Positions 27,644 to 45,433 of a stretch of DNA of 64,000 bases are shown piece after piece. A model generated the notes under the pieces. It saw only the letters and a list, made by a program, of their open reading frames with translations, was not told the DNA's origin and searched no databases. The DNA is taken from NCBI RefSeq assembly GCF_002160255.1, contig NZ_NFKF01000002.1, positions 62,001-126,000 of the forward strand, given 5' to 3'. The translations under genes and the position numbers were made by a program. The stretch's first letter is position 1, and every line of letters begins with the position of its first letter. The stretch is from Olsenella sp. An188. Lineage in GTDB: Bacteria > Actinomycetota > Coriobacteriia > Coriobacteriales > Atopobiaceae.

Positions 27644-27728
27644 TGATTGTCTTTATTAACTATTAACGACACAATCAGATGGTTGTCAGCGGTAACTATT
27701 CTTCGGTTAACGGTAGCAACTATTCTTT
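27644..27728 (-). promoter_or_regulatory. PTS operon promoter with multiple operator-like repeats
   Basis: An unusually AT-rich stretch upstream of IIA. TGATTGT (27644-27650) and ACAATCA (27671-27677) form a wide inverted repeat. AACTATTCTT occurs at 27694 and 27718, and AACTATT also at 27658 and 27952. TAACGGTAGCAAC (27708-27720) matches the MarR-gene operator at 21584. On the minus strand CTGACA near 27686 and TAATAG near 27664 make a reasonable -35/-10 pair. It is likely the control region of the PTS-MarR gene set. Confidence 0.55.
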
Positions 27729-35635: not shown

Positions 35636-38587
35636 ATGCCAAGCACCGATCCCGCCGCCCCGGCCGAGAAGAGCCGCTTCGCCGCGCCCGACCCCGCGCT
35701 CGCCGCGCTCACCCGCCACGCCGGCTTCACCGTCACGCGCGTCGAGCCGCTGCCGGAGATCTCGGGCCAGGCCTACGTCATGCGCCACGACGCCACCGGG
35801 GCGCATGCCCTGTGGCTGGCCTGCGCGGACGTGAACCGCGCCTTCGCCATCAGCTTCAGGACGCCGCCCGCCGACGACACGGGCGTCTTCCACATCCTGG
35901 AGCACTCGGTGCTGTGCGGCTCCGAGCGCTACCCGGTCAAGGAGCCCTTCGTCAACCTGCTCAAGACGAGCATGCAGACGTTCCTCAACGCCATGACCTT
36001 CCCCGACAAGACCATGTACCCGGTGGCCTCCACCAACGTGGCCGACCTCGAGAACCTCATGGGCGTCTACCTCGACGCAGTGCTGCACCCGGCCATCTAC
36101 GAGCGGGAGCGCATCTTCGAGCAGGAGGGCTGGCACCTCGAGGCGGACGACGAGGGCCGCCTCTCCTACAACGGCGTCGTCTTCAACGAGATGAAGGGCG
36201 CCCTCTCCGACCCGGACGACGTGCTCTACCAGGAGCTCAGCCGCGCCCTCTTCCCCGACACCGCCTACGGCCACGAGTCCGGCGGCAACCCGCGCGCCAT
36301 CCCCACCCTCACCTACGAGGCCTTCCTGGACTCCCACGCGCGCCACTACGCGCTCTCCAACAGCTACGTCGTGCTCTACGGCGACCTGGACATAGACCGC
36401 GAGCTCGCCTTCGTGGACGAGCGCTTCCGCGGGGCGACCGATCGCGGGGCCGGCGCGCCCAACCCGCTCGCGCTGCAGGCCCCCGTGCGCCCCGCGCGCG
36501 TGGAGGTGCCCATGGCCACGGCGCCCTCCAACTCAGAGATCGGCCTCTCCTACGTGCTGGGCACCGCCGCGGACCGCACGCGCGTGCTCGCCGTGGACGT
36601 CCTTCTCGACGCGCTGTGCGGCTCCAACGAGGCCCCGCTCAAGCGGCGCGTGCTCGACGCGGGCCTGGCCGACGACTTCTCCGCGATGCTCGTGGACGGC
36701 GTGCTCCAGCCGCAGGCGATGTTCGTGCTGCGCGGCCTGCGCCCCGGCGCCGGAGAGAAGTTCCGCGCGCTCGTGGAGTCCGCCTGCGCCGAGCTCGCCG
36801 AGGGCGGCATCGGGCGCGACAAGCTCGAGGCCGCGCTCTCCCAGGCGGAGTTCAACCTGCGCGAGGGCGACTGGGGCGGCTACCCCGACGGCGTGGCGCT
36901 GGCCATCACGGCGATGTCGAGCTGGCTCTACGACGACGAGCGCCCGCTCGACTACCTGCGCTACGAGGACGCCCTGGCCGAGCTCAAGGCGGGTCTTGAC
37001 GAGGGGCTCTTCGAGCGGCTCCTGCGCGAGCTCGTCTGCGAGAGCGCGCACTGCGCCGAGGTGGAGATCGTGCCCGTCGAGGGGGGCAGCTCCGCCGAGG
37101 AGGCGGCCGAGCTCGAGGCGCTCCGGGCGACCATGGGCGAGAAGGACCTCGAGACCGTGCGCGCCGAGGTGGCGGCCCTGCGCGCCGAGCAGGAGGCCCC
37201 GGACTCCCCCGAGGCGCTCGCCACGCTGCCGCGCCTCACGCTGGGCGACGTGGAGGCCCCCGCGGCCGAGCCCGCCCCGGCCGACGTGGACGCGCCGCTG
37301 CCCTGCATAGCCCACGAGCTGGACACCCACGGCATCGACTACGTCTACCACTACTTCGACCTGCGCCGCCTGGGCTTCTGCGACCTCCCCTACGTGGGCG
37401 TGCTCACCGACCTGCTGGGGCGGCTGGACACCGCGCGCCACACGGCCTCCGAGCTCGACACCCTCATCGAGTCCAGCCTCGGGTCCCTGGACTTCTTCTG
37501 CGAGACCTACACCCGCGACGCCGACCTCTCCTTCGCCGCGCCCACGCTCGTGGTGGGCGCCTCGGCGCTGGCCGAGAAGGTCGAGGCGCTCGCCACGCTG
37601 CCGTCCGAGGTCTGGGGCGAGACGAGCTTCTCAGACCTCGACCGCATCCGCGACGTCCTCACGCAGCGCAAGGTGGGCCTCGAGCAGTACTTCGTGGGCT
37701 CCGGGCACACCGCGGCGGCCGCGCGCGCCAACGCGTACTTCTCGTCCGCGGCCGTGGTGGCGGGCGCGATGTCGGGGCTCGACTACTACCTGTTCCTGCG
37801 CGAGCTGCTGGACGGCTGGGACGAGCGCGCGGCCGAGCTGCCGGGGCGCCTGGCTGGCCTCGCGCGACGCGTCTTCACGGCCGACGAGGTCGTCGTGAGC
37901 TTCACCGGCGCGGCCGCCGACCGCGCGCGGTTCTGGGAGGCCGGAGGCACGCTCGGGCTCCCGTCCGGCGCGGACGCGGCGCACCGCCTGGCCGTCCCCG
38001 CGCCCGCGGTGCGCGACGAGGCCTTCGTCATCCCCTCCGACGTGTGCTACGTGGTGCGCGCCCTCGGGACGAGCGCGGCCGACGCCGGCACGCCCGGCTG
38101 CTGGCAGGTGGCCTCGCGCGCCCTCTCCTTTGACTACCTCTGGAACGAGGTCCGCGTGAAGGGCGGCGCCTACGGCTGCGGGTTCCGCCACACGCGCGAG
38201 GGGCTGAGCGCGCTGTGGTCCTACCGCGACCCGTCCGTGGACGCCACGCTCGCGCGCTACGACGGCGCGGCGGCGTGGCTCGCCGCCTGGGAGCCGGACG
38301 AGGATGAGCTCGAGGGCTACGTGGTCTCGACGGTGGCCGCCCACGACGCGCCGGTCAAGCCGCGCGCGCTGGCGCGCCGCCAGGACGTGGCGCGCTTCGG
38401 CGGGCGCGAGGGCGGCTGGCGAGACGAGCTGCGCGCCCAGGAGCTCGCCACGACCGCCGCCGACGTGCGCGCCCTCGCGGCCGCGCTCGCAGACCCGGCC
38501 GCCGAGCGCGCCGTCTGCGTCTTCGGGGGCCGCGCGGCCGTCGAGGCGAGCGGCGTTGCCTTTGGCTCCGTGACCGAGCTCTGCTGA
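35636..38587 (+). CDS. M16C metallopeptidase (presequence-protease/Cym1-like)
   Basis: 983 residues, ATG 35636 behind GGGAGGAACC. The inverted zinc motif HILEHSVLCGSERYPVKEPF (HxxEH) lies near residue 85, with the distal Glu in GVVFNEMKGALSDPDD. AMTFPDKTMYPVASTN and VRVKGGAYGCGFRHTREG are typical of the large single-chain M16C peptidases, which degrade free peptides inside a clamshell. Its TGA overlaps the start of the histidine-kinase gene (TGATG), an odd partner for a two-component system. Confidence 0.92.
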   Translation: MPSTDPAAPAEKSRFAAPDPALAALTRHAGFTVTRVEPLPEISGQAYVMRHDATGAHALWLACADVNRAFAISFRTPPADDTGVFHILEHSVLCGSERYPVKEPFVNLLKTSMQTFLNAMTFPDKTMYPVASTNVADLENLMGVYLDAVLHPAIYERERIFEQEGWHLEADDEGRLSYNGVVFNEMKGALSDPDDVLYQELSRALFPDTAYGHESGGNPRAIPTLTYEAFLDSHARHYALSNSYVVLYGDLDIDRELAFVDERFRGATDRGAGAPNPLALQAPVRPARVEVPMATAPSNSEIGLSYVLGTAADRTRVLAVDVLLDALCGSNEAPLKRRVLDAGLADDFSAMLVDGVLQPQAMFVLRGLRPGAGEKFRALVESACAELAEGGIGRDKLEAALSQAEFNLREGDWGGYPDGVALAITAMSSWLYDDERPLDYLRYEDALAELKAGLDEGLFERLLRELVCESAHCAEVEIVPVEGGSSAEEAAELEALRATMGEKDLETVRAEVAALRAEQEAPDSPEALATLPRLTLGDVEAPAAEPAPADVDAPLPCIAHELDTHGIDYVYHYFDLRRLGFCDLPYVGVLTDLLGRLDTARHTASELDTLIESSLGSLDFFCETYTRDADLSFAAPTLVVGASALAEKVEALATLPSEVWGETSFSDLDRIRDVLTQRKVGLEQYFVGSGHTAAAARANAYFSSAAVVAGAMSGLDYYLFLRELLDGWDERAAELPGRLAGLARRVFTADEVVVSFTGAAADRARFWEAGGTLGLPSGADAAHRLAVPAPAVRDEAFVIPSDVCYVVRALGTSAADAGTPGCWQVASRALSFDYLWNEVRVKGGAYGCGFRHTREGLSALWSYRDPSVDATLARYDGAAAWLAAWEPDEDELEGYVVSTVAAHDAPVKPRALARRQDVARFGGREGGWRDELRAQELATTAADVRALAAALADPAAERAVCVFGGRAAVEASGVAFGSVTELC

Positions 38588-40107
38588 TGGGCGCGGCGTC
38601 GCGCGCGGGCGGGAGGGCCCTCGTCTCGCTCGCCGCCACCTGCGCCCTCGTGGCGCTGGCCACGCTCGCGGGCACCCTCATGAGGACGGCGGGGCTGCAG
38701 GACGCCGCCGTCGTCATCACCTACGTGCTCGCGGTCATCGGCGTGGCGCTCGTGGCCGAGGGAGGGCTGTGGTGCCTCGTCGCGGCCGCCGCCTCGGTCG
38801 TCGCCTACAACTTCTTCTTCGCCGCGCCCACGCTCTCGCTCGCGGCGCTCGACCCGGCGATGCCGGGCACCTTCGCCGTGATGTTCGTCGTGGCCCTCGT
38901 CGCCGGCTACCTCGCGAGCCGGCTGCGCTCGCGGGCGCGCGAGGCCGAGGAGGAGCGCCGCCGCACCCAGGCGCTGCTCGAGCTCTCCCGCGCGCTCCAG
39001 GGCCGCGCGGGGGCCGCGTCCGTCGTGGACGCGCTCGCGGGCGCCACCGCGCACCTCCTGCGACGCGCCCTCGTCTGGTACCCGGCAGCCGGCGAGAAGG
39101 ACCTCGGGGCGGCGCGCCCCTACCCGCTCGCCCCCGGGGAGAGCGTGGTCGAGGAGCGCGGCGTCGCGGCCCGCACGCTCGTCAACCGCGCCCCGTGCGG
39201 GGCGGCGACGGGCGCCTTCGGCTCGGCAGTCGGCCTCTACGTCCCGGTCGGCGGCGAGGTCGTCCACGGGGTCGCCGGCATCGTGCCCGCCGCAGGGCTC
39301 GCCCCCGAGGAGGTCGAGCTCTGGCGCTCGGCCTGCGCGCTCGCCGCCCTCGCGCTCGACCGCATCTCGGCAATCGCCGAGCGCGAGGAGGCCGCCGTGC
39401 GCGAGCGCGACGAGCGCACCCGCTCCGACCTGCTGCGCTCCATCTCCCACGACCTGCGGACCCCGCTCACCTCGATATCCGGCAACGCCGACGTCCTTCT
39501 CGCCGCGGGCGAATCCCTCGACCCGGAGCGCCGCCGGGAGCTGCTGCGCACCGTGCGCGACGACGCCCGCTGGCTGCGCGCCACGGTGGAGAACCTGCTC
39601 ACCGTGACGCGGCTCGAGGAGGGCGGGGTGCGTCCGCAGGCGGACTGCGAGCTCGTGGACGACCTCGTGGAGGAGGCGCTCGCCCACGTCGCGGCCGACG
39701 ACGGGCACGCCGTCACGTTCGAGCGCGACGAGGAGGCGCTTCTCGTCCACGCGGACCCCGCGCTCGTGGTCCAGGCGCTCGTGAACCTCGTCAACAACGC
39801 GGTGGCGCACACGCCCCGCGGCACGCACGTCACCGTCAGCGCGCGTCGCGAGGGCGCCCGCGTGGGCGTCTCGGTTGCAGACGACGGACCCGGCATCGCG
39901 GACGCCGAGAAGGGCCGCGTCTTCGACGCCTTCCACACGAGCGGCGGCGTCCTCGCGGACGGGACCCGCAGCGTGGGCCTCGGGCTCTCGGTCGTCCGCG
40001 CCGTCGCGCGCGCCCACGGCGGATCCGTCACCCTGTCCGACGCCGTCCCGCACGGCTGCGTCATCACGCTCTGGCTTCTCGCCGAGGAGGTACCCGATGT
40101 CTGCTGA
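38587..40107 (+). CDS. KdpD-like sensor histidine kinase lacking the N-terminal KdpD and Usp domains
   Basis: 506 residues versus about 900 for full KdpD. It begins directly with the four-span DUF4118 membrane domain (SLAATCALVALATLAGTLM; AEGGLWCLVAAAASVVAYNFFFAAPTL; FAVMFVVALVAGYLASRL). A GAF-like segment follows, then the kinase core with the phosphorylated His in RSISHDLRTPLTSISG near residue 288, the N box LVNLVNNAVAHTPRG and the G boxes VADDGPGIADAE and GLGLSVVRAVARAHGG. The regulatory sensor of the KdpFABC K+ pump normally has the missing N-terminal part. It overlaps the response-regulator gene by 11 bp. Confidence 0.9.
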   Translation: MGAASRAGGRALVSLAATCALVALATLAGTLMRTAGLQDAAVVITYVLAVIGVALVAEGGLWCLVAAAASVVAYNFFFAAPTLSLAALDPAMPGTFAVMFVVALVAGYLASRLRSRAREAEEERRRTQALLELSRALQGRAGAASVVDALAGATAHLLRRALVWYPAAGEKDLGAARPYPLAPGESVVEERGVAARTLVNRAPCGAATGAFGSAVGLYVPVGGEVVHGVAGIVPAAGLAPEEVELWRSACALAALALDRISAIAEREEAAVRERDERTRSDLLRSISHDLRTPLTSISGNADVLLAAGESLDPERRRELLRTVRDDARWLRATVENLLTVTRLEEGGVRPQADCELVDDLVEEALAHVAADDGHAVTFERDEEALLVHADPALVVQALVNLVNNAVAHTPRGTHVTVSARREGARVGVSVADDGPGIADAEKGRVFDAFHTSGGVLADGTRSVGLGLSVVRAVARAHGGSVTLSDAVPHGCVITLWLLAEEVPDVC

Positions 40108-40822
40108 GCCCCGCGCCGAGGGCGGCGCGCCGCTCATCCTCGTGGTCGAGGACGACGCCGCGATCGCAAGCCTCATCTCCACCGCGCTCGAGACCCGCGG
40201 GTGGGTCCCGCTCGTCGCCGGCACGGCCGCGACGGCCATCGCGCTTGCCGCGGAGCGCTCGCCGCAGGTCATCCTGCTCGACCTCGGCCTGCCCGACGCT
40301 GACGGCATCGAGGTCGTGCGTCGCGTGCGGACCTGGTCGGAGGGGCTGCCGATCATCGTGGTCTCCGCGCGCGGGGAGGACGCCGACAAGATAGGAGCGC
40401 TCGACGCCGGGGCCGACGACTACCTCGTCAAGCCCTTCTCGGTGGGGGAGCTCCTCGCGCGGGTGCGCGTCGCGCTGAGGCGCGCGGGACACGAGGGTGC
40501 CGAGGCGCGCGAGGGCGGGGCCGTGCTCTCCAACGGCGCGCTCGAGCTCGACTTCGCCGCGCGCGTCGCGAGGGCGGGCGGCGAGGAGCTGCGGCTCACG
40601 CCGCTCGAGTGGCGGGTGCTCGCGCTGCTCGCCAAAAACGTCGACCGGGTCCTCACCCACCAGTACCTGCTCGAGCACGCCTGGGGGACGGGCCAGGTCG
40701 GCGACCTCGCGTCGCTGCGCGTGATCATGGCGTCGCTGCGCCGCAAGCTCGAGCGCGCCGGCGCGGCCGGGCTCATCCAGACGCACGTGGGCGTGGGCTA
40801 CCGCATGCTCCGGGCCGAGTAG
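40097..40822 (+). CDS. KdpE/OmpR-type response regulator
   Basis: 241 residues from ATG 40097 (GAGGAGGTACCC). The receiver domain has LILVVEDDAAIASLI, the phosphorylated Asp in VILLDLGLPDADGIEV near residue 62, and VKPFSVGELLARVRVAL. The winged helix includes LRLTPLEWRVLALLAKN and GVGYRMLRAE at the end, as in KdpE. Its targets are probably the divergence-free region 40823-41257 and the cation ATPase after it. Confidence 0.92.
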   Translation: MSAEPRAEGGAPLILVVEDDAAIASLISTALETRGWVPLVAGTAATAIALAAERSPQVILLDLGLPDADGIEVVRRVRTWSEGLPIIVVSARGEDADKIGALDAGADDYLVKPFSVGELLARVRVALRRAGHEGAEAREGGAVLSNGALELDFAARVARAGGEELRLTPLEWRVLALLAKNVDRVLTHQYLLEHAWGTGQVGDLASLRVIMASLRRKLERAGAAGLIQTHVGVGYRMLRAE

Positions 40823-40831
40823 CCGCGCCGA

Positions 40832-40937
40832 GGTTCTTCTCGCCCGGCGCGTTCTTCTCGCCGCCGCTGCCGCACAATTCCGGAATTGTGCGGAGAACGC
40901 GTCGCACGACGCGGATTTCTTAAGCGCGAGAAGAACC
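40832..40937. repeat. Cluster of three uptake-like motifs
   Basis: GGTTCTTCTCGCC at 40832-40844, GTTCTTCTCGCC at 40851-40862 and GCGAGAAGAACC at 40926-40937. This is the densest cluster of the GGCGAGAAGAACC motif in the window, placed right after the response-regulator stop. The first two face the opposite way to the third. Confidence 0.7.
40870..40893. promoter_or_regulatory. Perfect 24-bp palindrome
   Basis: CCGCACAATTCC joined to its exact complement, centre between 40881 and 40882. A second palindrome with the same inner 20 bp follows 104 bp downstream. Both lie between the response-regulator gene and the cation-ATPase gene. They could be high-affinity operators or cruciform/terminator sites. 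Confidence 0.6.
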
Positions 40938-40971
40938 CCAACAGGCGATTTGCGGCCCCCACACGCCCGGA

Positions 40972-40999
40972 CGGCGCACAATTCCGGAATTGTGCGCCG
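40972..40999. promoter_or_regulatory. Perfect 28-bp palindrome
   Basis: CGGCGCACAATTCC joined to its exact complement, centre between 40985 and 40986. It shares GCACAATTCCGGAATTGTGC with the palindrome at 40870. The outer bases differ between the two copies but stay self-complementary in each (CC/GG versus CGGC/GCCG). Confidence 0.6.
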
Positions 41000-41101
41000 C
41001 GGGGGGCACGGGGCAGTGGGTGCGCCGCGGGGACACCGGCGCCGCGGGGGACACCGGCGCCGGCACCACAAGCTCTCGCCCACCCCTCGCAACCTGCGGC
41101 G

Positions 41102-41151
41102 TTAATACCGTCTTTATGCCATGATACCCCCTATTAACTGCATCTTTATGC
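41102..41151 (+). promoter_or_regulatory. Direct-repeat site upstream of the cation ATPase
   Basis: TTAATACCGTCTTTATGC (41102-41119) and TTAACTGCATCTTTATGC (41134-41151) match at 14 of 18 positions and are 32 bp apart, three helical turns. They lie in the only AT-rich part of the 435-bp gap before the ATPase. Direct repeats on one face of the helix suit OmpR/KdpE-type regulators, so binding by the adjacent KdpE-like protein is likely but unproven. Confidence 0.5.
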
Positions 41152-41257
41152 TCGCACTGTGACAAATCGACCACATGCCGCCGCGTGGGGCACCAGCCTC
41201 GCGGGACGCTCTACCCTAACCGCGTACGGATAAACCGCGACGGAAGGGAGGCCCGCG

Positions 41258-44104
41258 TTGGAGGACGCGACCCAGGCGACGCAAGTCGCCGTTCAGCGGC
41301 TCACCGCCGACTCGGTCTTCTCGGCTCTCGGCAGCGCGCCCGGCGGCCTCACCCAGGCCGAGGCGCAGGCGCGCCAGGCCGCTCAGGGCAAGAACCTCAT
41401 CACCACGGAGAAGAAGGGCTCGCCCGTGCTGGCCTTCCTCTCCAACTTCACGCACCTCATGGCCTGCCTGCTCTGGGCGGCCGGCATCATCGCCTTCGTG
41501 GCGGGGCTGCCCGAGCTCGGCGTGGCCGTCTGGCTCGTGAACGTCATCAACGGCTGCTTCAGCTTCTGGCAGGAGTACCGCGCCGGCAAGGCGACCGACG
41601 CCCTCAAGAAGATGCTGCCGTCCTACGCGAGCGTCATCCGCGACGGCCAGGAGCAGCGGATCTTGGCCGAGGACCTCGTCCCCGGCGACGTCATGGTGCT
41701 CGCCGAGGGCGACAAGATCTCCGCCGACGCGCGCGTGGTGCGCGCCTCCGACCTGCAGGTCAACCAGTCCACGCTCACCGGCGAGTCCAACCCCGTCCGC
41801 AAGACCGCCGACGCCGTGCTCGAGGAGGACCTCACGCAGGCCGAGACGCCCAACCTCGTCTTTGCGGGAACCTCGGTCTCGGAGGGCAACGGCCGCGCCG
41901 TGGTCACGCGCATCGGCATGGACACGGAGTTCGGCAAGATCGCCCACCTCACGCAGAACATGGAGGAGTCCGAGAGCCCGCTGCAGCGCCAGCTCAACCG
42001 CACGACCAAGCAGATCACGATCTTTGCCGGCTGCATGGGCCTGCTCTTCTTCCTGCTCGACACCCTCTTCGTAGGCAGCGGCTTCGCGGCGGCGTTCATC
42101 TTCTCGCTCGGCATGGTGGTGGCCTTCATCCCCGAGGGCCTGCTGCCCACGGTGACGCTGTCGCTGGCCATGGCCGTGCAGCGCATGAGCAAGCGCAACG
42201 CCCTGGTCAAGAAGCTCAACTCCGTGGAGACCCTCGGCTCGACCTCGGTCATCTGCACGGACAAGACGGGCACCCTCACGCAGAACGAGATGACCGTCAA
42301 CCACCTCTGGACCGTCAGCCACGAGTACGACCTCACCGGCGTGGGCTACTCGCCCGAGGGGTCGGTTCGCCTCGGCGAGAAGGACGTCGAGGCCGCGGAT
42401 GACGACGACCTGCGCATGCTCGTCATAGGCGGGGCGCTGTGCTCCAACGCCCGCCTCGTCGAGCCCGAGGAGCCGGGCGGGCGCTACACCGTGCTCGGCG
42501 ACCCCACCGAGGCCTGCCTGCTCGTCTCCGCCCAGAAGGCCGGCGTCGACCCCGCGGCGCAGGAGGCCGCCTGGCCGCGCGTGCGCGAGCTACCCTTCGA
42601 GAGCCGCCGCAAGCGCATGACGACGATCCACCAGCTCCCCGAGAGCGTCGACGGCGCGCGTCGCGTGGCCTTCGTCAAGGGCGCCCCGGGCGAGGTCGTG
42701 GCCCTCTCGACGCGCGTGCGCGTGGACGGCGAGGTGGTGCCCATGACCGCGGGGCTGCGCGAGAAGATCATGTCCGCCAACGACGCCTACGCGGCCGACG
42801 GCCTGCGCGTGCTCGCCGTGGCCTACCGCCCCATCAGGCCCGACGACGACACGATCCCGCGCTCCATGAGCGACTACGACCCGGACAACGTCGAGCGCGA
42901 CCTCACGTTCGTGGGGCTCCAGGTCATGCAGGACCCGCCGCGTCCCGAGGTGGCGGCGGCCGTGGCGGAGTGCCGCCGCGCCGGCATCCGCGTCATCATG
43001 ATCACCGGGGACTACGGCCTCACCGCCGTTTCGATCGCGCGCAAGATCGGCATCGTGCAGGGCGCCCACCCCAGGGTCTTCTCGGGCGTGGAGCTCGAGC
43101 GCACGAGCGACGAGGAGCTCAAGGAGGCGCTCGCCGGCGAGGTGGTCTTCGCGCGCATGGCCCCCGAACAGAAGCTGCGCGTGGTCGAGAACCTCCAGCA
43201 GATGGGCGAGATCGTCGCCGTCACCGGCGACGGCGTGAACGACTCCCCCGCCCTCAAGAAGGCCGACATCGGCGTGGCGATGGGCATAACGGGCACCGAC
43301 GTGGCCAAGGAGGCTGCCGACATGGTGCTCACCGACGACAACTTCGCCTCGATCGTCAACGCCATCGAGGAGGGGCGCGCGGTCTACGCCAACATCCGCA
43401 AGTTCATGCTCTACATCCTGAACTCCAACATGCCCGAGGCCGTGCCCTCCGCCGTCTACCTGTTCTCGGGCGGGGCCGTGCCGCTGCCGCTCACCACGAT
43501 GCAGATCCTGACGATCGACCTGGGCACGGACATGCTTCCGGCGCTCGGCCTGGGCTGCGAGGCCCCCGAGGACGACGTCATGGACCGCCCGCCGCGCGAC
43601 CCCTCCGAGCCGCTGCTCACCGGGCGCGTCATGCGCAAGGCCTTCCTCTGGTACGGCCTCATGGGCGCCGTCGTCTCCATGGCGGCGTACCTCTTCGCCC
43701 AGCTCGAGGGCGGCTGGCTGCCGGGGGCGGAGATGTTCGGCGTGGGCGCCGACCTCGACCCGGTCTACGTCCGCGCGACCACGATGTGCCTCGCCGCCAT
43801 CGTCTTCGCCCAGATCGGGCAGGTGCTCAACTGCCGCACCGAGACCGCCTCGGTCTTCTCGCGCGGGCTCCTCTCGAACCGCCAGATCAACGTCGGCATC
43901 GTCTTCGAGGTTATCCTCATAGTGTTCATCACGATCTTCCCGCCGTTCCAGGCCGTCTTCCACACGAGCCCGCTCGGGGTCCTGGACTACGCCTTCCTCT
44001 GCTGCCTGCCGCCGCTCGTGCTCGCGGTCGAGGAGGCCCGCAAGGCCGTGTTTCGCCACGTCAGGAGGCGCCGCGCCGAGCGCGCGGGCGCCGAGGAGAG
44101 GTAG
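41258..44104 (+). CDS. P-type cation ATPase with Na,K-ATPase (P2C)-like signatures
   Basis: 948 residues, TTG start behind GGAAGGGAGG. Actuator-domain NQSTLTGESNPV, phosphorylation site CTDKTGTLTQNEMTVN near residue 335, and VTGDGVNDSPALKKADIGVAMG. Transport helices read IPEGLLPTVTLSLAM (M4), LNSNMPEAVPSAVYLF (M5) and IDLGTDMLPALGLGCE (M6). PEGLL, SNxPE and IDLGTDM are features of Na,K/H,K-ATPases rather than of SERCA-type Ca pumps (PEGLP, NLVTDGLPA). I therefore infer K+ or Na+/K+ transport. No beta-subunit gene is nearby. KdpDE-like and RCK-protein neighbours support monovalent-cation homeostasis. Confidence 0.85.
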   Translation: MEDATQATQVAVQRLTADSVFSALGSAPGGLTQAEAQARQAAQGKNLITTEKKGSPVLAFLSNFTHLMACLLWAAGIIAFVAGLPELGVAVWLVNVINGCFSFWQEYRAGKATDALKKMLPSYASVIRDGQEQRILAEDLVPGDVMVLAEGDKISADARVVRASDLQVNQSTLTGESNPVRKTADAVLEEDLTQAETPNLVFAGTSVSEGNGRAVVTRIGMDTEFGKIAHLTQNMEESESPLQRQLNRTTKQITIFAGCMGLLFFLLDTLFVGSGFAAAFIFSLGMVVAFIPEGLLPTVTLSLAMAVQRMSKRNALVKKLNSVETLGSTSVICTDKTGTLTQNEMTVNHLWTVSHEYDLTGVGYSPEGSVRLGEKDVEAADDDDLRMLVIGGALCSNARLVEPEEPGGRYTVLGDPTEACLLVSAQKAGVDPAAQEAAWPRVRELPFESRRKRMTTIHQLPESVDGARRVAFVKGAPGEVVALSTRVRVDGEVVPMTAGLREKIMSANDAYAADGLRVLAVAYRPIRPDDDTIPRSMSDYDPDNVERDLTFVGLQVMQDPPRPEVAAAVAECRRAGIRVIMITGDYGLTAVSIARKIGIVQGAHPRVFSGVELERTSDEELKEALAGEVVFARMAPEQKLRVVENLQQMGEIVAVTGDGVNDSPALKKADIGVAMGITGTDVAKEAADMVLTDDNFASIVNAIEEGRAVYANIRKFMLYILNSNMPEAVPSAVYLFSGGAVPLPLTTMQILTIDLGTDMLPALGLGCEAPEDDVMDRPPRDPSEPLLTGRVMRKAFLWYGLMGAVVSMAAYLFAQLEGGWLPGAEMFGVGADLDPVYVRATTMCLAAIVFAQIGQVLNCRTETASVFSRGLLSNRQINVGIVFEVILIVFITIFPPFQAVFHTSPLGVLDYAFLCCLPPLVLAVEEARKAVFRHVRRRRAERAGAEER

Positions 44105-44110
44105 GTAGCC

Positions 44111-44764
44111 ATGAACGTCATCGTAGTCGGGGCCGGCCACATGGGCCGCGGCCTGGCCGAGCGGCTCTGCCGCCAGGGCCACGACGTGACCGTCATCGAC
44201 CGCAACCCCGAGAAGCTCGAGGGGCTCGACGAGTCCTTCACCGGCAGGCGCGTGCAGGGCGTGGGGTTTGACCGCGACCTTCTCGCCCGCGCCGGGATAG
44301 CCCGGGCGAGCGCGCTCGTCGCCTGCACCTCGACCGACGAGGCCAACATCGTGATCGCGCGCGTCGCCCGCGGCACCTACCGCGTGCCCCGCGTCATCGC
44401 GCGCCTCTACGACATCTCGAAGGCCGAGGCCTACCGCCGCCTGGGCATCCAGACCATCTCCACCACCGACTGGGGCATCCGCCACGCCTGCGAGCTGCTC
44501 ACCTACCAGGAGCTGGACACCGTCCTCGAGGTGGGCTCCGGCGACGTCCAGCTCGTGCGCACCGACGTGCCCGCGCCGCTCGAGGGGCGCCCCGTCCGCG
44601 AGGTGAGCGCCCTCGGCGAGGTGCAGGTCATGGCGATCTCGCGCAACAACGAGACCTTCATCCCCACCCTGGGCACGCTCCTGGAGCACGGCGACGTGGT
44701 CTACGCCGCGGTCGCCTCGAGCGCCTCGGGGAAGTTCGCGTACATGCTCGGCCAGAGCGAGTAG
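44111..44764 (+). CDS. TrkA/KtrA-type RCK protein 1
   Basis: 217 residues, 6 bp after the ATPase stop with GAGAGGTAGCC before ATG. The NAD-binding RCK_N fold opens VIVVGAGHMGRGLAERLCRQ with an acid at the end of strand 2 (VIDRNPEK). An RCK_C-type domain follows (PLEGRPVREVSALGEVQVMAISR). Such proteins gate TrkH/KtrB K+ channels in response to nucleotides. No TrkH or KtrB gene is in the window, so the partner is elsewhere or is the ATPase next door. Confidence 0.88.
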   Translation: MNVIVVGAGHMGRGLAERLCRQGHDVTVIDRNPEKLEGLDESFTGRRVQGVGFDRDLLARAGIARASALVACTSTDEANIVIARVARGTYRVPRVIARLYDISKAEAYRRLGIQTISTTDWGIRHACELLTYQELDTVLEVGSGDVQLVRTDVPAPLEGRPVREVSALGEVQVMAISRNNETFIPTLGTLLEHGDVVYAAVASSASGKFAYMLGQSE

Positions 44765-44773
44765 GAGGCCACC

Positions 44774-45433
44774 ATGGACATTCTCATCGTCGGCGGCGGG
44801 AAGACGGGCAGCTACCTCGCCACGCTGCTCGCGGAGGACGGCTACCGCCTCCGCATCATCGAGATCCGCAAGGACCTCGTCTGTGGCCTGCGCGCCCAGT
44901 TCGGCGAGAAGGACGTCATCCTCGGCAACGGCGCCGACCCCCTCACCCTCGAGCGCGCCGGGGTCTGGCACGCCGACGTCGTGGTGGCGGCCACGGGATC
45001 GGACGAGGTGAACCTCGTGGTCTCGACGCTCGCCAAGATGGAGTACAACGTGGGCCGCGTGGTCGCGCGCGTCAACGACCCCGTCAACGCCTGGATGTTC
45101 AACGAGGGCATGGGCGTCGACGTGGGCATCAACCAGGCCGACATCCTCGCGCGCTCCGTCCAGGAGGGCCTCGACCTCAAGGACGTGTTCACGATCTTGC
45201 GCCTCGGCAAGGACGACCACGCCGTCGTGCGCGTGGAGGTGCGCAGCGGCTCGCGCGTCGTGGGCGAGGCCCTGCGCGACGTCGAGCTGCCCGGGGAGAC
45301 CATCCTCGTGGCCATCGACCGCGACGGCGACATCATCGTCCCCAAGGGCGACACGCGCTTTGCCGCCGGCGACAAGATCATCGCGTTCACGGACAGCGAG
45401 GGGCGCACGCGCCTGCACCGCGCCTTCGCCTAG
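44774..45433 (+). CDS. TrkA/KtrA-type RCK protein 2
   Basis: 219 residues, 9 bp after the first RCK gene. ILIVGGGKTGSYLATLLAEDG and IIEIRKDL form the nucleotide-binding start; LVVAATGSDEVNLVVSTLAK follows, then an RCK_C segment (VVGEALRDVELPGETILVAI). It is clearly a paralogue of its neighbour, though diverged. Two different RCK subunits in tandem are often found with Trk systems, where they form a heteromeric gating ring. Confidence 0.88.
   Translation: MDILIVGGGKTGSYLATLLAEDGYRLRIIEIRKDLVCGLRAQFGEKDVILGNGADPLTLERAGVWHADVVVAATGSDEVNLVVSTLAKMEYNVGRVVARVNDPVNAWMFNEGMGVDVGINQADILARSVQEGLDLKDVFTILRLGKDDHAVVRVEVRSGSRVVGEALRDVELPGETILVAIDRDGDIIVPKGDTRFAAGDKIIAFTDSEGRTRLHRAFA

Follow-up and report, generated by a model that had tools for sequence, protein, structure and literature searches.

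A putative K+-homeostasis operon combining a KdpD/KdpE-like pair with a Na,K-ATPase-like pump and two RCK proteins in Olsenella sp. An188

The window analyzed here is a 64,000-nucleotide stretch of the Olsenella sp. An188 genome (G000:C9:62001-126000; genome of 2.14 Mb, 99.94% complete). Between positions 38587 and 45433, five open reading frames, all on the forward strand, encode in this order a short KdpD-like histidine kinase, a KdpE-like response regulator, a P-type ATPase, and two RCK proteins, RCK1 and RCK2. This locus is probably an operon for K+ homeostasis whose KdpD/KdpE pair regulates, instead of KdpFABC, a P2C pump, the type that includes the Na,K-ATPase; most likely, KdpDE was transferred from the control of kdpFABC to that of an operon for a P2C pump and RCK proteins. 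The computational support lies in gene content, the P2C grouping of the ATPase, conservation of its ligands, kinship of the kinase to KdpD, a match to a KdpE-type operator, and conservation of the ATPase-RCK1-RCK2 triad. A first-pass annotation of the same DNA had proposed a P2C pump in place of Kdp under a stripped KdpD. Our analysis supports this proposal, to which the kinase tree, the kdp-type operator, and triad conservation are now added, and it goes beyond it in locating the operator (41102-41151) upstream of the ATPase and a Kup gene elsewhere in the genome.

The kinase (506 amino acids [aa], 38587-40107) overlaps the start of the regulator gene (OmpR type, 40097-40822), and 435 bp separate the end of the regulator from the start of the ATPase. 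The ATPase (948 aa, 41258-44104) is read from a TTG start behind a likely ribosome-binding site, GGAAGGGAGG (41242-41251, read from the sequence). It is followed, at the 6 and 9 bp given in the first-pass annotation, by RCK1 (44111-44764) and RCK2 (44774-45433), each of which carries TrkA_N and TrkA_C domains in the domain search; the closest solved relative of RCK2 in the structure library is TM1088B. The conservation of this arrangement was followed in 246 genomes of the class, taking as ATPase orthologues matches of at least 834 bits (next matches, at most 628 bits). An orthologue was found in 51 of the 246 genomes, and in 50 of these 51, G183 included, RCK1 and RCK2 matches lie after the pump, some of the RCK2 matches spanning only part of the protein; at the exception, L048, the contig ends inside the ATPase. 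In the wider phylum, 210 of 396 genomes had an ATPase match, and an RCK protein stood beside the pump at 19 of 40 loci picked from that match list, some of which are P2A by their motifs. Among 80 named loci from the matches listed, at least five have an RCK protein beside the pump. These are in Bacillus marasmi, where the pump-RCK module also has a DUF4118 kinase and the regulator is frameshifted in the record (L188 4109-4807), in Collinsella tanakaei, and in metagenome-assembled genomes (MAGs) of an Erysipelotrichaceae member, a member of the Clostridia, and a Nitriliruptoraceae member whose contig ends in RCK1. The trees of ATPase, RCK1, and RCK2 all recover a grouping of Coriobacteriales, L039, and Bacillota (support of 100 for the ATPase; 96/99 and 100/99 for the RCK trees, built from 21 and 18 chosen rows), a pattern expected of genes that move together.

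Whole-genome searches returned no match to KdpA and none to the TrkH/KtrB family, extending to the entire genome the earlier reading that kdpFABC and trkH are absent. A kdp operon elsewhere in the genome and a TrkH/KtrB partner for the RCK pair are both rejected on these grounds. TrkA_N was found in RCK1, in RCK2, and, with a score barely above threshold, in a 641-aa frame. That frame does not look like an RCK protein and was rejected as one; it resembles a molybdenum-hydroxylase/XdhC-type maturation protein. As the genome lacks TrkH/KtrB, the RCK pair most likely acts on the pump. The strongest alternative is that the pair has no action on the pump, is merely co-transcribed with it, and serves Kup or a K+ channel or transporter outside the screened families. 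One Kup gene is indeed present, so the pump need not be the sole K+ uptake system, and the CeoB/CeoC K+ uptake system of Mycobacterium tuberculosis (PMC12136442) consists of two TrkA proteins (PMC13163235). Against this alternative stand the persistence of the pair behind the pump in the class and in some Bacillota, with matching trees, and the finding that 37 of the 51 pump genomes have neither KdpA nor TrkH. We consider it a serious contender that falls somewhat short of an even chance. TrkH taken singly was found in 8 of the 51 pump genomes versus 109 of the 195 others (P = 2e-7, uncorrected for descent).

The ATPase itself was assigned to a class by several approaches. A search of the PDB gave Na,K-ATPase alpha chains as the best matches (535 bits), followed by LMCA1 (492 bits) and SERCA (at most 476 bits). 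In a FastTree phylogeny of 100 rows, the window pump, its relatives, and the Na,K-ATPase alpha3 chain formed one clade with support of 0.999, to the exclusion of SERCA, LMCA1, and the P2A-like pumps of the same taxonomic class. IQ-TREE, run under a mixture model on 48 chosen rows, recovered the same P2C/P2A split with a Shimodaira-Hasegawa-like approximate likelihood ratio test (SH-aLRT) support of 100. In approximately unbiased (AU) tests, whose three groups were all chosen after the tree was seen, two constraints were rejected: one joining SERCA and LMCA1 to the window clade (p-AU, 0.00017) and one joining the Na,K-ATPase to P2A (p-AU, 0.025). The ten cation ligands of M4, M5, M6, M8, and M9 (E293, Y719, S723, N724, E727, D754, T757, D758, Q852, and E884) are identical in the alignment to those of the Na,K-ATPase and invariant in 16 of 16 rows; in pig alpha1 numbering we take them to be E327, Y771, S775, N776, E779, D804, T807, D808, Q923, and E954. 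Compared with SERCA, D754 replaces Asn and Q852 replaces Glu. The motifs that the first-pass annotation had picked out are present in the translation: PEGLL in M4 (42131-42145, with E293), SNxPE as SNMPE in M5 (43424-43438, with S723, N724, and E727), and IDLGTDM in M6, of which IDLGTD (43514-43531) holds D754, T757, and D758. Collectively, these findings support a P2C assignment, the window ATPase grouping with the Na,K-ATPase and apart from the Ca2+ pumps, in line with the earlier reading.

Some observations count against the P2C assignment. The position of Na,K-ATPase D926 is not kept, near relatives having Q, E, or N there. The AU test did not reject the window clade and all P2A rows as one side (p-AU, 0.31); unrooted, this arrangement is the same as the window clade splitting off first within P2C, and it says nothing on membership. 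The top NCBIfam model was a PMR1-type Ca2+ pump with 640 bits versus 620 bits for the IIC model, both below their cut-offs. The latter score does not reach the TIGR01106 cut-off of 946, which seems to have been drawn for animal-type pumps; the named archaeal-type or bacterial P2C pumps at L154, L182, and L188 likewise fall below it. The AlphaFold model (mean pLDDT, 78.3) matched the E1.3Na structure of the Na,K-ATPase best (Z, 38.7; root mean square deviation [RMSD], 6.9; 899 residues), and LMCA1 followed close behind (Z, 37.0; RMSD, 7.5; 838 residues), so near that fold alone cannot decide between P2C and P2A.

Two rival views of what the pump transports bear on the same evidence. The pump could be regulated by KdpE and mainly export Na+ (or H+), importing little or no K+; KdpE would then answer salt or turgor, and the pump would relieve Na+ stress. 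Consistent with this, the Na,K-type Na+ sites are kept, and membrane pyrophosphatase genes lie near the pump-RCK-RCK genes at L150 (13262-15340), L187 (422-2461), and L041 (11442-13616), as do V-ATPase subunit I genes near L154 and L182, hinting at ion-gradient islands. The Na,K-type K+ ligands are kept as well, however, and the neighbors elsewhere are K+ systems, namely kdpABC in G241 and G097 and TrkH with several TrkA genes directly before pump-RCK-RCK at L156 (941-6614). We regard the exporter view as unlikely. That the ATPase is a Ca2+ pump of the P2A type, as annotation by its best NCBIfam model would have it, is very improbable and is rejected by the trees, the AU test, and the cation ligands, and the same genome encodes separate P2A-like pumps.

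Several side observations concern these pumps and their neighbors. A K+-dependent Na+-pyrophosphatase as the typical neighbor was considered and dropped, as the three pyrophosphatases are of no uniform type, two having GNTTKA and one GNTTAA, letters that we take to mark the type. An alphaproteobacterial pump (L198 5001-7598) pairs with Na,K-ATPase alpha3 (SH-aLRT, 99) inside the bacterial P2C diversity. A P2C-like subgroup is marked by GTE instead of GTD in M6 and by AHxxPE instead of SNxPE in M5 (L150 5019-7772, L152, L158, L160, L162, L165 to L167, L173, L174, L186, and L187), which makes a differing ion preference likely; in G247 and G291, a pump of the GTE type is encoded close to one of the GTD type.

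The kinase contains DUF4118, HisKA, and HATPase_c domains, and the domain search found neither the KdpD (serine kinase) nor the Usp N-terminal domain in it. This bears out the earlier description of a kinase with the membrane and catalytic parts of KdpD, and since the KdpD/Usp part is lacking we term it KdpD-derived and not a full KdpD. Its best solved relative is KdpD (6lgq), and its membrane part also matches KdpD 2ksf. The regulator, read as KdpE-like before, has KdpE as its best NCBIfam model and shares 58% identity with the regulator encoded next to kdpABC in G241. In a kinase tree of 19 chosen rows, the pump-linked short kinases grouped with full-length KdpDs of kdp operons from the same order (88/99, not starred), and the pump-linked short kinase of L055 was the sister of the full KdpD of L275 (100/100). 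A separate clade (100/100) comprised the short kinases that families f7, f10, and f11 encode next to kdpABC or TrkH. Given these two placements, the short KdpD form appears to have more than one origin.

Gene order in related genomes places the pump module next to kdp genes. In G241, the pump, RCK1, and RCK2 are followed on the same strand by the kdp genes, and in G097 the genes of a short KdpD-KdpE pair, along with two others, separate pump-RCK-RCK from kdpA. At the kdp loci of G010 and G097, KdpD-N/Usp is a protein separate from the short DUF4118 kinase (L272 9006-10130 and L269 16134-17270), a split that has also been reported before (PMC11018627). The same paper gives KdpB as the target of the KdpD serine-kinase domain in Escherichia coli, so that loss of this domain from the kinase would fit loss of KdpFABC. 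Among the strongest 118 DUF4118 sites in the 246 genomes, 82 have kdpA, a P2C pump, or TrkH at a distance of no more than 5 kb (44, 21, and 18, respectively, one counted twice); the domain thus accompanies three kinds of K+ transporter. Separately, a 282-aa DUF4118 protein without kinase domains is encoded beside TrkH at L273 (3550-4395), and similar short DUF4118 frames occur near TrkH in G012, G033, G167, and G210.

Judged by sequence match, the gap between regulator and ATPase carries a putative KdpE-type operator. It comprises two 18-bp direct repeats 32 bp apart (41102-41151), predicted as TTAAT-N6-TTTATGC (41102-41119) and TTAAC-N6-TTTATGC (41134-41151), each with two T-rich half-sites 11 bp apart. 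This is the layout of the E. coli KdpE site, TTTATA-5 bp-TTTACA (PMC3264566). The exact box, a pattern drawn from this very site, occurs twice in the genome, both times here, and the next sites are two mismatches off. A looser pattern has three matches in the window versus 0.02 expected, by which a chance repeat upstream of the ATPase is rejected. On the forward strand, this pattern was found in 14 of the 20 upstream regions with a kinase-regulator pair (19 class loci and B. marasmi) versus none of the 18 without; the count leaves out G183, L081 (too little sequence), and the distant loci L041 to L053.

An independent motif, trained solely on eight kdpFABC promoters of another family (f2), was then scored. 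On both strands of the 64-kb window, its best sites were at 41113 and 41134, with 41102 in fourth place; the third-best site, at 27652-27667, is near a frame resembling a phosphotransferase system component. Random window stretches (n = 4,933) peaked at 14.9 versus 19.0 at the ATPase promoter. The motif scored 26.4 at the kdp promoter of G241 and 30.9 at that of G195; another 12 kdp promoters, from f3, scored between 10.6 and 30.0, with 11 of them reaching at least 20.8. Pump promoters with a kinase-regulator pair outscored the best of the 18 without one in 16 of 20 cases; the P value of 1.8e-6 for this comparison is not a true probability, as the rows are related.

Several results weigh against KdpDE control of a P2C pump as the overall reading. 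The kinase matches its best NCBIfam model, KdpD, only over positions 403 to 888 of 895 with 200 bits (cut-off, 1,123), and the regulator matches KdpE with 202.5 bits (cut-off, 325). The kinase-regulator pair is directly upstream of the pump in only 20 of the 51 genomes, G183 among them, and missing there in the other 31. KdpA is present in 7 of the 51 pump genomes versus 46 of the 195 others, an exclusion that is not significant (P = 0.18), and Kup offers the cell another route for K+. In another actinobacterium, Mycobacterium smegmatis, the KdpE site is reported not to resemble that of E. coli (PMC5401905). The f2 motif misses the short-KdpD kdp loci of G010 (6.5) and G097 (-4.8), and L055 carries the kinase-regulator pair and no operator by this motif.

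A mechanism consistent with these observations can be outlined, in which we infer the signal, the ions, their direction, and the RCK action. The KdpD-derived kinase without the KdpD/Usp part would sense low K+ or osmotic stress and phosphorylate the regulator. The KdpE-like regulator would bind the tandem operator at 41102-41151 and switch on ATPase-RCK1-RCK2; the sensing, binding, and induction steps rest on homology and the operator. The single-polypeptide pump would exchange cations at sites of the Na,K-ATPase type, most likely exporting Na+ and importing K+. RCK1 and RCK2, as a split TrkA, would most likely report to the pump the state of a nucleotide (NAD(H), ATP/ADP) or of cyclic di-AMP, a possible RCK ligand here given that the genome encodes a diadenylate cyclase. 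In its fullest form, which we put forward tentatively and with rather less confidence than KdpDE control, the system would be a one-polypeptide Kdp replacement, with its pump-RCK-RCK core in many Actinomycetota and some Bacillota. A split TrkA would directly gate this bacterial pump of the Na,K-ATPase type, and a KdpD/KdpE pair moved over from kdpFABC would drive its transcription; the pump would be the first RCK-regulated P-type ATPase.

Two further features border the operon genes. The kinase ATG overlaps the stop codon of an M16C-type peptidase gene (TGATG, 38585-38589), which suggests translational coupling of the two genes. The gap separating regulator and ATPase also holds two identical copies of a 22-bp palindrome, CGCACAATTCCGGAATTGTGCG (40871-40892 and 40975-40996), whose 20-bp core has no further copy within the window.

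The locus resembles several known systems in part. With the Na,K-ATPase, the H,K-ATPase, and the uncharacterized archaeal P2C ATPases it shares tree position, M4-M6 and M8-M9 ligands, and fold; unlike these, the window pump is bacterial, and its operon also encodes two RCK proteins and a KdpD/E-like pair. With KdpFABC and its KdpD/KdpE it has in common a DUF4118 kinase, a KdpE-like regulator, a tandem operator of the KdpE type (predicted here), and a presumed low-K+ role, whereas the window genome has no kdpA, the target is a P2C pump, and the kinase lacks the KdpD/Usp part. The split TrkA proteins TM1088A/B of Thermotoga (3l4b), of which RCK2 best matches TM1088B, and the mycobacterial CeoB/CeoC are likewise two separate RCK proteins; the window pair differs in sitting behind a P-type ATPase in a genome without TrkH/KtrB. 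The trkB-trk-pacL locus of Streptococcus mutans, listed as a putative K+-transport locus (PMC7082836), also joins a P-type ATPase gene name, pacL, to trk genes; it differs in holding trkB. In the open-access literature, with most subscription papers outside the search, we found no description of KdpDE driving a P2C pump or of RCK proteins with P2C.

A 2023 review treats the role of archaeal P2C pumps as an open question and their gene products as uncharacterized (PMC10654040). The present locus ties a bacterial P2C pump to K+ regulation through its promoter, regulator, and neighbors, which opens the role of such a pump to direct tests. The locus further suggests that KdpDE can function in the absence of KdpFABC. 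Systems of that class lie beyond the KdpD survey by Silberberg and others, which covers species with an annotated Kdp pump (PMC11018627). The organism appears to have lost Kdp, the customary emergency K+ pump, and to have connected the former Kdp switch to a pump related to the sodium-potassium pump of animals.

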